From Candidatus Celerinatantimonas neptuna (GTDB lineage: Bacteria; Pseudomonadota; Gammaproteobacteria; Enterobacterales; Celerinatantimonadaceae), in assembly GCA_911810475.1 (NCBI GenBank), contig OU461276.1:1145501-1209500 (forward strand): a DNA stretch of 64,000 nucleotides. The letters are read 5' to 3'. The position numbers and the translations under genes are program-made. Each line of letters opens with the position of its first letter. The stretch's first letter is position 1. This document shows positions 13,096 through 40,998 of the stretch, one piece after another. Below the pieces are notes generated by a model. It was not told the DNA's origin, searched no databases, and saw nothing but the letters and a program-made list of their open reading frames with translations.

Positions 13096-13493
13096 AGAAT
13101 GCTATAGGATAGCGTTACAAAGTAAACACAAATTCAATTCTTTTTTAATCATAATGAAAAATATTCATTATCGTATTTATCACCCTACTTTTTCCCACCC
13201 AAGAATAGAATCCAGATAAAACCCGTACAAACTTTGCTCTCTGATTCTATACGTTGTATTCAGACTAAATCACATAATGCCGTTCAAAATTCTAAACCAG
13301 AACATTTTTTCAAAGCACTCTTTCAACATACAATTCAGCAGATTCAATTATTTATTGACAATTAAATCCATTAACGAACTGGATAAATAATAAACACATG
13401 TTATAGTTTAAATAGGTATAAGGAGAATAGGCTCTAAAAAACGGGAAAAACATTGCAACATGGTGTAGATGACTGAGGTGAATGGGGTAAAAA
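13096..13493. other. Gap between metF and the first orphan gene
   Basis: About 400 AT-rich bases holding the metF upstream region. No supported gene. A GGGG six bases before 13494 is the ribosome-binding site of the next gene. Confidence 0.6.
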
Positions 13494-14306
13494 ATGGTAG
13501 ATAGTGTCCCCTCATTAACAGGCCAACAACGCAGCATAAAACAGGTTGTAAAACCCATACTGCAAGCGGCCCGGGCTCCAGATAATCGAGCTTTTCAGCA
13601 GCAACAGCTTAATTCGCTAGCTCGTGCCAGTGCACCTTTACCGATCGTTCAAGTATCAGGTGCATTACCAATGGAGGGTCAGTCGGCAATCGATCCCCGC
13701 CGATCAGATAAACCCACATATGCACCGCAAAAACCGAATAGCTATAAGCAGCCACCCAGTCAGAAAGAAGAGCAACGTGAACATTGGCAAAGTGTCCCTC
13801 AAAGCAGTGAAACATCGGTTACTTTATCCGAACCATTAAGTGTTATGATCCAAAGAATCGCAAAACCGGTCACAGTAAAAGAAATCACCAATACCATTGC
13901 ACAACCGACTGAACAGCCGACGAAACGAACAACTCAGCCGCAAAATACTCAGAATATCCCCAAAAACCAACCCAGAGAAACATCAGTAAATTCAACTACA
14001 GACCAATCTCAAGAGAAACAAGATGCCAATCGACCCGAAGTTGCGACACAGAGACAGGAAAAAGCAGCTCAGCGACAACCAACAAATGATGCAGCTCGAC
14101 AACCAGATAGTAAACAGAGTCAGCCTCATCAGCGGATCACTCAGGCTGCAATCAGAGCACAGGGACGAGCCCGGGATATCGTAATGAATGTCAACTATGC
14201 TGTTGCCATATCGATGCACTCAAAACGGCAACGACTCATGCAACATGTAGCAACGCAGGAATCTGTCTCAAATTCCAAACAAACTCAGCTGCAACAAACT
14301 ATTTAA
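13494..14306 (+). CDS. Unrecognised Gln/Pro-rich protein
   Basis: I do not recognise this 270-residue protein. It has GGGG six bases before the ATG. There is no signal peptide and no membrane segment. Residues 1-75 are moderately ordered (Gln-rich, with PIVQVSGALP), and residues 75-215 are low-complexity, rich in Gln, Thr, Pro, Ser and Lys (for example TEQPTKRTTQPQNTQ). The last 55 form a basic, probably helical tail (AAIRAQGRARDIVMNVNYAV). The composition suggests a disordered linker between two short ordered ends. It lies 66 bases before another unknown gene on the same strand. Confidence 0.6.
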   Translation: MVDSVPSLTGQQRSIKQVVKPILQAARAPDNRAFQQQQLNSLARASAPLPIVQVSGALPMEGQSAIDPRRSDKPTYAPQKPNSYKQPPSQKEEQREHWQSVPQSSETSVTLSEPLSVMIQRIAKPVTVKEITNTIAQPTEQPTKRTTQPQNTQNIPKNQPRETSVNSTTDQSQEKQDANRPEVATQRQEKAAQRQPTNDAARQPDSKQSQPHQRITQAAIRAQGRARDIVMNVNYAVAISMHSKRQRLMQHVATQESVSNSKQTQLQQTI

Positions 14307-14372
14307 GCAACTAAACTCAAAATGTAATTTTTGGATACTTAACACACAGAATGGTAGGTAAAGGATGTGACC

Positions 14373-14621
14373 ATGAGTGAATTAAAATATGGATATGAAG
14401 TCATGCAAATGATGCTGGAACACGATGGACTGGTCACAACAACTGTTCTCAATGAACTGGTCAATGAACAATTTAATCCCGGTCGACACGTCTACCAACG
14501 ACTAACTCATGCCATAGCTGTTATGCAATTTTTTGAACATCTCGAAGAACAGCGCAAATCGATAGTACAAAATGCCCCTCAGTCGAATGCCAAAGCTCAA
14601 CAATTAACACCAGATAATTAA
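14373..14621 (+). CDS. Unrecognised small helical protein
   Basis: An 82-residue protein of unknown function. The start is taken as ATG at 14373, with AAGGA seven bases upstream; a GTG two codons earlier is too close to that site. The first 65 residues look mostly alpha-helical (MSELKYGYEVMQMM, then LNELVNEQF, then HAIAVMQFFEHLEEQ), and the tail is polar. No signal peptide or membrane segment. It follows the Gln-rich gene by 66 bases and may form an operon with it; both lie between metF and the MarC-type gene. Confidence 0.55.
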   Translation: MSELKYGYEVMQMMLEHDGLVTTTVLNELVNEQFNPGRHVYQRLTHAIAVMQFFEHLEEQRKSIVQNAPQSNAKAQQLTPDN

Positions 14622-14778
14622 CTTCATTCTGGACAAATACGGGTTACTCTTTGTTGCTGTTCATTCACCTGAAATGCTAAGCTTCACGCCCTAGCTCAAA
14701 CCACCGCTGACCGGATCAACCAAACTCATTCGGTCAATACGCGCTACATACATGAGCACTAATGGAAAAAGGTATTTT

Positions 14779-15387
14779 ATGAGTATTCTCTCCGCAACAT
14801 TGATGCTGTTTCTAATTATGGATCCTCTTGGAAACACCCCCGTTTTCATGTCGATCATGAAGCACATTGATCCCAAACGGCAAAGGAAAATCCTGATTAG
14901 GGAACTATTCTTTGCATTATTAGTGATGATGGCATTTCTTTGGGCGGGAGAACAAATATTAGGATTTTTAAATCTCAAGCAAGAATCTGTAAGTATTGCC
15001 GGAGGAATCATTTTATTTCTTATTGCTTTAAAAATGATCTTCCCCGGAGAAGGTGGTGTAGCGGGGTTAGCTGCCGGAGATGAACCTTTTTTAGTCCCGA
15101 TGGCCATTCCCATGATTGCCGGACCATCCATTCTGGCCACCTTAATGCTGATGGCTCATCAGGACCCACATAAAATGGGACAACTCAGTTTAGCTCTTAT
15201 TTTAGCATGGGGCGCAACATCAGCCATCTTAATCTGCAGTGCTTCACTCACCCGTTTTCTAGGAGAGAGAGGGTTAACTGCAATTGAACGGCTGATGGGA
15301 ATGCTACTGATCATGCTATCCGTACAGATGTTTTTAGATGGCATAGCCAACTACCTTCACAATACAGCATCCCTGGTTCAGTCATAA
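14779..15387 (+). CDS. yhgN: MarC/YhgN-family inner-membrane protein
   Basis: Multi-spanning inner-membrane protein of the MarC (UPF0056) family; the substrate is not established. From ATG at 14779 (AAAAAGG upstream) the protein has 202 residues, with about six hydrophobic segments and the family motifs LFLIMDPLGNTPVFMS near the N-terminus and VPMAIPMIAGPSILATLML in the middle. The sequence follows E. coli YhgN closely. An ATG 27 bases earlier would add a polar nonapeptide and lacks a ribosome-binding site. It converges with yhhL, the stop codons overlapping. Confidence 0.88.
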   Translation: MSILSATLMLFLIMDPLGNTPVFMSIMKHIDPKRQRKILIRELFFALLVMMAFLWAGEQILGFLNLKQESVSIAGGIILFLIALKMIFPGEGGVAGLAAGDEPFLVPMAIPMIAGPSILATLMLMAHQDPHKMGQLSLALILAWGATSAILICSASLTRFLGERGLTAIERLMGMLLIMLSVQMFLDGIANYLHNTASLVQS

Positions 15388-16252: not shown

Positions 16253-16584
16253 TTAGCCTGCCAGTTAATAATGATACTATTTAATCTCAATTTGGGATAA
16301 TCAAGTCTTTATGATGGCTATTTTGCCCGATTTCATTGCTAAATCAGCAGGTAATAGCATCACAATTACCAACTGAATCACCTTGAATTCGAACAAAATC
16401 GACCATCTTAAGCCGATAGTCATCTAAAATCATAAATGTCAGAATGTGATTGACTCATACGACGACTGTTTATCTCAACTTAAGATTATTTATACGATAT
16501 GCGCAGCATTGTACCAGTGTTATGCGAATCGCTGAAAATCATTTCAGCCAACCATATTGCTACGTTGTAAAGGTTCAAGATCTA
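16253..16584. other. rsmD-ftsY divergent promoter gap
   Basis: 332 bases between the two start codons. An open frame continues upstream of ftsY from 16450, but it is not supported by conservation. No clear operator or repeat was seen. Confidence 0.6.
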
Positions 16585-17925
16585 ATGGCAAAGAAAAAAG
16601 GCTTATTCTCCTGGTTCAAAAAAGATAAAGAAAAAACAACGTCTGAAGAAAACCCAGACGTAGTTCAAAACGAGACAACAGATAGCGAAGCACCAAAACA
16701 AGTCAAAGCTGAGACTTCTGAAAAAGCCCATCTTGAAGAGCGGGCTAAAACCGAAGCCGCTGAAAAAGCTCGTCTTGAAGAACAAGTTAAAGCAGAAACC
16801 GCTGAAAAAGCTCGTCTTGAAGAACAAGCTAAAGCAGATGCCGCTGAAAAAGCTCGTCTTGAAGAACAAGTTAAAGCAGAAACCGCTGAAAAAGCCTGTC
16901 TTGAAGAACAGGCTAAAGCCGAAACCGCTGAAAAAGCTCGTCTTGAAGAACAGGCTAAAGCCGAAACCGCTGAAAAGACATCTATTGGAAAACCGGCTAA
17001 ACGCCCCAGCTTATTAGCCCGACTGCGTCAAGGACTCAAACGAACACGAGGCAATATCGGCAATGGCTTTTTAAGCTTGTTCAGCGGCAAAAAAATCGAT
17101 GATGATTTATTTGAAGAACTCGAAGAACAACTTATTATCGCCGATGTTGGTGTTGAAACAACCCAGAAAATCATCAAGCATTTAACGGATACCTCCAGCC
17201 GGCGCGCACTCAAAGATGGTGAAGCTCTGTATGAATTACTTCAAGAGCAAATGGGGAGTATGTTAAGAGAAGTTGAACAGCCACTAAAACCTGAAGCTGA
17301 TGGTCCGTTTGTGATCCTGATGGTCGGTGTCAACGGTGTCGGTAAAACAACAACGATCGGCAAACTGGCAAAACAATTTCAAGAACAGGGTAAATCAGTC
17401 ATACTGGCCGCTGGTGATACATTCAGGGCTGCGGCTGTCGAACAATTACAGGTTTGGGGGGAACGTAATCAAATTCCCGTCATTGCTCAGCATACCGGTG
17501 CCGATAGCGCATCAGTATTGTTTGACGCCTATAGCTCAGCTAAAGCCCGAAATGTCGATATATTAATAGCAGATACTGCCGGACGTTTACAAAATAAAGC
17601 AAACCTCATGGAAGAGCTGAAAAAAATTGTCCGCGTCATGAAAAAGATCGATGAGACTGCACCTCATGAAATTATGCTCACTATCGATGCAGGTACCGGG
17701 CAAAATGCCATAAGCCAGGCCAAACTATTCAATGAAGCCATCGGACTATCTGGGATTACATTGACTAAACTGGATGGGACCGCTAAAGGTGGTGTTATTT
17801 TTGCGGTTGCCGATCAATTCAAACTACCCATTCGTTATATCGGTGTAGGAGAAAGAATCGATGACCTTCGCCCATTTGAAGCACAACCGTTTGTCGAAGC
17901 ACTCTTTACACAAGAGCAGGACTAA
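16585..17925 (+). CDS. ftsY: Signal recognition particle receptor FtsY
   Basis: GTPase that docks the SRP-ribosome complex at the membrane. From ATG at 16585 (MAKKKGLFSWFKK, an amphipathic membrane-targeting start) the protein has 446 residues. The N-terminal acidic A domain holds six full copies and one decayed copy of a 14-residue repeat of the type KAETAEKARLEEQ. The NG domain follows, with the P-loop GVNGVGKTTT, DTFRAAA, DTAGR and TKLDGTAKGG. First gene of ftsYEX. A longer frame from 16450 is not conserved. Confidence 0.96.
   Translation: MAKKKGLFSWFKKDKEKTTSEENPDVVQNETTDSEAPKQVKAETSEKAHLEERAKTEAAEKARLEEQVKAETAEKARLEEQAKADAAEKARLEEQVKAETAEKACLEEQAKAETAEKARLEEQAKAETAEKTSIGKPAKRPSLLARLRQGLKRTRGNIGNGFLSLFSGKKIDDDLFEELEEQLIIADVGVETTQKIIKHLTDTSSRRALKDGEALYELLQEQMGSMLREVEQPLKPEADGPFVILMVGVNGVGKTTTIGKLAKQFQEQGKSVILAAGDTFRAAAVEQLQVWGERNQIPVIAQHTGADSASVLFDAYSSAKARNVDILIADTAGRLQNKANLMEELKKIVRVMKKIDETAPHEIMLTIDAGTGQNAISQAKLFNEAIGLSGITLTKLDGTAKGGVIFAVADQFKLPIRYIGVGERIDDLRPFEAQPFVEALFTQEQD
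16702..16995 (+). repeat. 42-bp in-frame tandem repeat in ftsY
   Basis: Seven consecutive 42-base units (16702, 16744, 16786, 16828, 16870, 16912, 16954), the last decayed after nine codons. Each encodes [AV]-K-[AT]-[ED]-x-[AS]-E-K-A-x-L-E-E-[QR], a charged helical or coiled-coil pattern. The units are nearly identical at DNA level, so copy number may vary between strains. Confidence 0.9.
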
Positions 17926-40108: not shown

Positions 40109-40998
40109 GTGATAGGAAAAAACAGCTTGTTAAGTGACAAAAAAGGGCTTCGCATTAAACGGAATGCTCATGACACCTGGCTAAAATGGCACCGTGGATG
40201 TCGTTACTTAGCAGACATTCCTTTTGCTGCCAATCGAATTATTGAAGGCTGGTCTCTGGGAGCTTCGATGGAGATTGATTTGCAAAAGTATATGGAGATT
40301 GATTTGCAAAAGTATAATGGAGCAGGGTTTGTTATTTTGCACGACGAGATACTAGACAACTCGACCACAGGTCAGGGCAAACTCATCGATACTTGTGCAG
40401 AAGTCTTACAGACCCTATCTCTCAAAAACTCTAATGGAGAAGTGTCTAATCATCCAGTTCTACTGCTAAAAGCGTTGGCTAACCGCCTTGCACAAATACC
40501 TTGTCCAGCAAGCACAACTTTACAGCTAGATCTAAAATCAACCATAGAGTTGCTTAATAACGCAGATCGCCAAGCTTTTTGTCATGCGCTCGAGCCGATT
40601 GCTAACCACATTATTCTGTCGGGCGGTGATGCCCAAGCAGTTCAATATTTGGCAGACGCCTTACCATCAGCTAAATTAGGCTATGACCCATGTGAGCATA
40701 TACCATTTGACACATTTAAAACCAAAGAAGACTGGTACAATTTTGTATCCGGCACTTGTAAAACCATGCCAACAGCCACAATGATCTATTTAAACTACCA
40801 CATCATTTTATTGGCCGACAGACAGGGGGGGACCTCATTGCCGCATTCCATAACCAGCACAAACGTGTCGATGCTTGGACAATTAACAAAGCCGATACCA
40901 GCATACTGTCATCGGTTAACCGATTAATAGAACTTCATTGCGACCAAATCACCACAGATGAGCCTGTTGCATTACAAGCACTGATTGATAATCAATGA
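40109..40998 (+). pseudogene. Glycerophosphodiester phosphodiesterase, broken by one frameshift
   Basis: GDPD-family enzyme, which hydrolyses glycerophosphodiesters to glycerol 3-phosphate and an alcohol. The catalytic features are present: WHRG, the acidic pair in EIDLQKY, and ILHDEILDNSTTG. Two lesions are visible. A 24-base tandem duplication (40268-40315) repeats MEIDLQKY inside the active-site region. A -1 shift at a run of seven guanines (40825-40831) moves the conserved C-terminus (DLIAAFHNQHKRVDAW) to another frame, which ends at 40998. Last gene of the ABC operon. Decay is likely, but an assembly error cannot be excluded. Confidence 0.85.
40268..40315 (+). repeat. 24-bp tandem duplication in the GDPD gene
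   Basis: Two identical 24-base copies (40268-40291 and 40292-40315), each encoding MEIDLQKY. Homologues should have one copy because this block carries catalytic acidic residues. The duplication keeps the frame. Confidence 0.95.

Follow-up and report, generated by a model that had tools for sequence, protein, structure and literature searches.

A gene pair of Candidatus Celerinatantimonas neptuna with a probable origin in a stand-alone flagellin relative and YecH

In a 64,000-nucleotide stretch of the Candidatus Celerinatantimonas neptuna genome (hereafter the window), two open reading frames follow one another on the + strand, at the positions where an earlier note on this DNA had placed them. 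The features of the locus are as follows.

13494–14306, + strand: large gene (270 aa), a probable derived relative of short orphan flagellin-like proteins
14373–14621, + strand: small gene (82 aa), probably YecH-derived, without the six His/Cys
13475–13487, + strand: purine-rich, ribosome-binding-like stretch 5′ of the large gene, read by eye
14360–14365, + strand: ribosome-binding-like AAAGGA 5′ of the small gene, read by eye
13494–13715, + strand: N-terminal segment of the large gene, 44% identical across the genus's two genomes
13719–14108, + strand: Q/P/T-rich middle of the large gene (residues 76–205), predicted to be disordered
14121–14300, + strand: C-terminal helix of the large gene (residues 210–269), predicted to be long by a structure model
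14373–14438, + strand: codons 1–22 of the small gene, where conservation with YecH and within the genus is highest

As the earlier note had remarked, each start has a ribosome-binding-like sequence ahead of it. The small-gene frame could open at GTG 14367 or at ATG 14373, and the homologues of the small protein begin near the codon that matches ATG 14373; with the start that they support, the genes lie 66 bases apart, the spacing given before. This gap, the common strand and the lack of terminator-like sites between 13000 and 14850 (0 found, where shuffles would lead one to expect only 1.9) suggest that both genes are carried on one transcript. Scans of the window found no Rfam family at gathering score and no tRNA.

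The small gene lies directly 5′ of a MarC gene (PF01914, E 8.1e-55; 14752–15387), the start of which is probably ATG 14779, where the opening sequence of its homologues matches. Two repeats were observed elsewhere in the window. At 16697–16976, inside the frame 16450–17925, a 42-base unit is present in about six copies and encodes KAETAEKARLEEQ-type repeats; the protein of this frame carries SRP54-type domains (PF00448, PF02881) and we take it to be FtsY. The other, at 40268–40331, is a 24-base tandem repeat of about 2.6 copies.

The genus was sampled by two genomes, the window's own and one other. In the latter both genes are intact, in the same order and between the same neighbours, with 38% (large) and 31% (small) identity to the window's; the two open reading frames are therefore real genes, more than chance. 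Among 40 genomes searched, with that of the window counted, 10 gave a match to the large protein and 9 to the small one, and every one of these belongs to the same family. The earlier note had raised the prospect of a degenerate region lacking homologues in related genomes; homologues were found in both the genus and the family. Between the two genus genomes, 14 neighbouring genes show 49–83% protein identity and the pair about 35% by the same measure, which makes the pair the fastest-changing among these 16 genes.

At the orthologous place, 10 of 10 family genomes of other genera encode a flagellin-like protein of 223–226 aa. All ten of these proteins match Flagellin_N (PF00669; best E 1.5e-13); when they are taken together with the two genus proteins, Flagellin_N is found in 10 of the 12 rows and Flagellin_C, weakly, in eight. 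A canonical YecH gene (TIGR03853/DUF2492) stands directly 3′ of the flagellin-like gene in 8 of the 10 genomes, and is missing in G004 and G006. Further afield, a MarC gene lies 3′ of yecH on the same strand in 11 of 36 YecH places examined, in four families (39 loci, three being second views of a place; these are mostly the best-scoring YecH places, with mostly ~1.5 kb seen). Because of their place in this gene order, together with partial homology, we consider it very probable that the two genes descend from a short stand-alone flagellin relative and YecH.

For the large protein, this homology is confined to one end. A profile search with the whole protein gave no substantial match in Pfam or NCBIfam, and a PHROGs search returned nothing. 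Specifically, the flagellin N-terminal region (PF00669) matches neither the window protein (E up to 10) nor its genus relative (E up to 1), and the flagellin C-terminal region (PF00700) does not match the window protein (E up to 10). When the C-terminal part (residues 196–270) was aligned with each of five family proteins, two of which (L059 and L060) are near-copies, 0 of 2000 shuffles reached the score; for the corresponding part of the genus relative, this was true of four family proteins, and 2 of 2000 shuffles reached the score against the fifth. Alignment of the two genus proteins with the ten family proteins by hhalign gave a single match, in the C-terminal block (E 3.7e-5), and it is residues 213–249 that combine conservation in the genus with homology to the flagellin-like C-terminus.

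The N-terminus shows no similarity to the family's flagellin-like proteins (633 to 1798 of 2000 shuffles reach the score), and that of the middle is unconvincing (49 to 1277 of 2000). By the shuffle test, the N-terminal flagellin signature (ASGKRINxAADDPAGLQIS type) is absent from the window protein. An alignment made by eye, in which 'APDNRA' would be a worn-down 'AADDPAG', was rejected, the score being reached by 949 of 2000 shuffles for the window against L058 and by 633 to 1443 of 2000 for the other four family proteins. In 273 other genomes of the class, a sample that evidently did not include the genus relative, the N-terminal segment is unmatched; the window is the sole match of 274. 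This segment, and a middle without convincing relatives, are what one would expect of a new and unrelated system of tether or scaffold type, found at this place by chance, but the C-terminal block and the small protein are homologous to a pair at the same place in relatives, and we regard such a coincidence as very unlikely.

The Gln/Thr/Pro-rich middle described in the earlier note is real, with 16% Q, 12% P and 12% T across residues 76–205. The ordered ends that were thought to flank it are borne out at the C-terminus only. An AlphaFold2 model built from five sequences (those of the window protein and four relatives) has low confidence over most of its length (mean pLDDT 47.6); it predicts a C-terminal helix over residues 210–269 (block pLDDT 63–82), and the first 50 residues (block pLDDT 36–55) do not appear as an ordered end.

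The small protein matches TIGR03853 (YecH) with E 2.6e-4 and DUF2492 (PF10678) with E 6.2e-4, its 21.4 and 20.4 bits falling below the curated cut-offs of 65.7 and 27. Its hhalign match to canonical YecH has E 5.3e-9 over 67 columns. In comparisons of the whole protein with three YecH proteins, two scores are reached by none of 2000 shuffles and the third by 2 of 2000; for the first 24 residues the count is 0 of 2000 with each of the three, and for the sequence after residue 24 it is 41 to 1642 of 2000. The view that neither gene belongs to a known family thus gives way, in the small protein to these sub-threshold matches and in the large one to the flagellin-like C-terminus. Six columns that are invariant in canonical YecH (HHHCCH in 7 of 7 rows) have become YYYRTD in the window's protein and GLTLDY in that of the genus relative. 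On these alignments, we identify the small protein as a YecH descendant that has lost all six invariant His/Cys, the putative metal ligands, in both genus genomes. The window genome has no YecH above the cut-off; the genus relative retains a canonical one elsewhere, on contig C1.

A low-confidence structure model of the small protein has three helices (mean pLDDT 53.9). The earlier picture of a two-gene unit, in which a protein with a disordered middle is accompanied by a small helical protein, is thereby supported, weakly as regards the helices. The PHROGs search with the small protein gave two weak matches (E 0.029 and 0.037). Canonical YecH at L058:4749–4994 matches phrog_26368, a PHROGs family without known function, with E 5.4e-26, so YecH has relatives among the viral or proviral proteins behind PHROGs. 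Candidate PDB relatives of YecH all had E 0.35 and above, and were set aside.

The flagellin-like proteins of the family have counterparts across the order. A profile of the family proteins, run against 197 genomes of the order, found 15 further short proteins outside the family (E 1.5e-46 to 2.8e-23), each matched over nearly its whole length; the next matches are partial, namely L093, a protein of another kind (E 3.6e-23), followed by proteins of flagellin size, the best of which has E 6.8e-20. A maximum-likelihood tree with 27 rows separates 17 short proteins, by a branch supported 99/98, from four ordinary flagellins and from two Alkalimonas-type and four Desulfuromonadales/Desulfobulbus-type flagellin-like proteins. 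The tree took 12 of the 15 short proteins outside the family and 5 of the 10 within it; the two genus proteins, L083 and L084 (near-copies) and L092 (stops) were left out, and two of four flagellin loci, L095 and L097, failed the motif filter. The short proteins (loci L058–L061 and L078–L092) also differ from ordinary flagellins at both ends. An LAQANQ-type end is present in 4 of 4 ordinary flagellins and 0 of 17 short proteins, and all 18 listed Flagellin_C matches of short proteins end at positions 65–78 of 86. All short proteins except L088 (16 of 17) carry an arm before the N-terminal signature that is more charged than the arms of the four flagellins. Sequence comparison thus gives good support to a separate clade of short flagellin relatives that lie away from flagellar genes and lack the ordinary C-terminal end.

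In G089, the short flagellin-like gene (L092) has two in-frame stops and is likely a decaying copy, which indicates that members of this clade can be lost. Flagellin-like proteins of yet another kind (263–272 aa) are encoded at L064:3974–4765 and L093:1063–1881, where they adjoin polysaccharide/nucleotide-sugar genes (PF02719, PF01041 and PF02348 beside L064; the neighbours at L093 were judged by eye). We presume that these sugar genes are perhaps of the kind that glycosylates flagellin. Among the titles and abstract openings listed by literature searches, none dealt with the gene pair or with a clade of short orphan flagellins.

A descendant of flagellin might still serve the flagellum, and we therefore consider the possibility of a minor part or regulator of the flagellum that is still treated or exported like a flagellin and that caps, doses or titrates filament assembly. 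FliG_C and ordinary flagellins are present in all 20 genomes checked that carry the short protein or its derivative (15 outside the family and 5 of the family), and the part retained in the window protein is the flagellin-type C-terminal block; both observations agree with such a role. The position of the genes argues against it. In the window genome FliG and the ordinary flagellins lie at 0.33 and 0.37 Mb respectively, but the gene pair is at 1.16 Mb. Outside the family, the short gene and FliG are on different contigs in 13 of 15 carriers and 0.48 and 0.78 Mb apart in the other two, and a tblastn search with 13 proteins from the flagellar stretch of the window genome matched the 15 short loci only on the short genes themselves, with no other flagellar gene beside them.

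The promoters point the same way. We scanned the 300 bases 5′ of 21 genes (19 short genes and the two genus genes; L083, L084, L092 and part of the family near-copies were left out), using single-base shuffles for comparison. No convincing sigma-28 site was found in any of the 21 regions, the best score, at L078, being reached by 32 of 300 shuffles and that of the window's large gene by 253; in contrast, the scores of the window genome's two ordinary flagellin genes were reached by 5 and 1 of 300. The sigma-54 scan of the same regions was likewise unconvincing (its best score, at L025, is reached by 22 of 300 shuffles, unremarkable among 21). As the short proteins also lack the ordinary flagellin C-terminal end, we judge a flagellar component of this kind to be quite unlikely.

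The partnership with YecH has a narrower range than the clade. A tblastn search with four YecH proteins found yecH at 0 of the 15 short loci outside the family, in flanks of mostly about 1.5 kb either way, which makes the pairing a family-specific one; in control loci, YecH was found in three of four as expected, the fourth being the flagellar stretch.

To what extent selection maintains the two genes can be read from codon positions, counted in ungapped blocks common to the two genus genomes, where the choice of the blocks from a protein alignment somewhat favours positions 1 and 2. In the large gene, matches at positions 1, 2 and 3 number 30, 39 and 16 of 52 in the N block (p 2.4e-5) and 29, 25 and 15 of 37 in the C block (p 9.7e-4). 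Because positions 1 and 2 match far more than position 3, both conserved blocks of this gene are under protein-level constraint. In the small gene, constraint is weakly indicated, and in the first 22 codons alone (16, 17 and 11 of 22, p 0.04); after codon 22 the counts are 21, 16 and 17 of 46 (p 0.43).

That both genes have been remade in parallel in one genus fits a functional tie between them, and fits a joint loss of constraint equally well. Under such a loss, both genes would be drifting out in the genus, the large protein being mostly disordered and the small gene nearly a relic. The small gene's missing codon-position signal after codon 22 and the disappearance of the six putative metal ligands from both genus genomes agree with this, and the stops in G089, a genome of another family, together with the absence of YecH from two family genomes indicate that both genes can be lost. 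However, the strong codon-position bias in the two blocks speaks for a functional large gene, and neither genome has a broken frame in either gene, although third positions of the large gene are only 0.32 identical. We consider relaxed constraint rather unlikely, though less so for the small gene.

The best explanation overall, to which we give a probability of about 0.5, is that of a remade pair, a helical adaptor that is not part of a filament and a co-transcribed partner that no longer binds metal. Both genes have very probably been remade in this genus from a flagellin-like gene followed by yecH. The large protein has kept the flagellin-like C-terminal block and carries a Q/P/T-rich linker as well as a different N-terminal segment that the genus conserves; the small one has kept the N-terminal region of YecH, its six putative metal ligands gone.

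How such a pair would act can be proposed only tentatively, and the scheme is somewhat less probable than its converse. We suppose that the large protein is no filament subunit, and that it may instead be a soluble or exported helical adaptor. Its flagellin-type C-terminal helix could bind a helical partner, which may be the protein itself, a flagellin or a flagellin-handling protein, and the N-terminal segment would be tethered to this helix via the flexible linker. The small protein, presumably translated from the same transcript, may modulate the large one without metal. A bolder and doubtful extension is that the order harbours a clade of stand-alone, non-filament flagellin relatives, one of which has in this genus, with a metal-less YecH, been rebuilt as a co-evolving two-protein helical assembly in which flagellin has become a tethered adaptor.

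A pair formerly regarded as unknown thus gains a traceable history, as a probable descendant, though a much altered one, of a known kind. The parent clade, that of the short stand-alone flagellins, may be a more interesting object than the pair itself, and together they raise a testable question: what role can a flagellin have outside the filament?

Comparison with known systems places the pair at some distance from each. A PDB search with the short clade matches the flagellin homolog of entries 3k8v and 3k8w, which we take to be p5, an alginate-binding protein on the surface of Sphingomonas sp. A1. On that identification, it is a flagellin relative whose role is not only that of a filament; it is longer than the short proteins and offers only a precedent. 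From bacterial flagellin itself (PF00669/PF00700, FliC/FlaA), the window protein's C-terminal block very probably descends by way of the short clade; unlike flagellin, the window protein has no Pfam match, N-terminal domain, LAQANQ-type end or convincing sigma-28 site, and its gene is far from the flagellar genes. The small protein shares with the YecH family (TIGR03853, PF10678/DUF2492) the homologous first 24 residues, the 67-column profile match and the place before MarC; it differs in scoring below both cut-offs, in the replacement of all six His/Cys and in a C-terminal part that is not recognisably related. Closest to the large protein are the short orphan flagellin-like proteins (223–233 aa) of Agarivorans, Aliagarivorans, Alginatibacterium and other families of the order, which within the family occupy the same gene position and whose C-terminal block, R-x-[ST]-Q-A-A-I-x-A-Q-x-x-A-R, is homologous to that of the window protein. 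In contrast to these, the window protein carries no flagellin N-terminal signature; its N-terminal segment is a different one, and a Q/P/T-rich linker is present.
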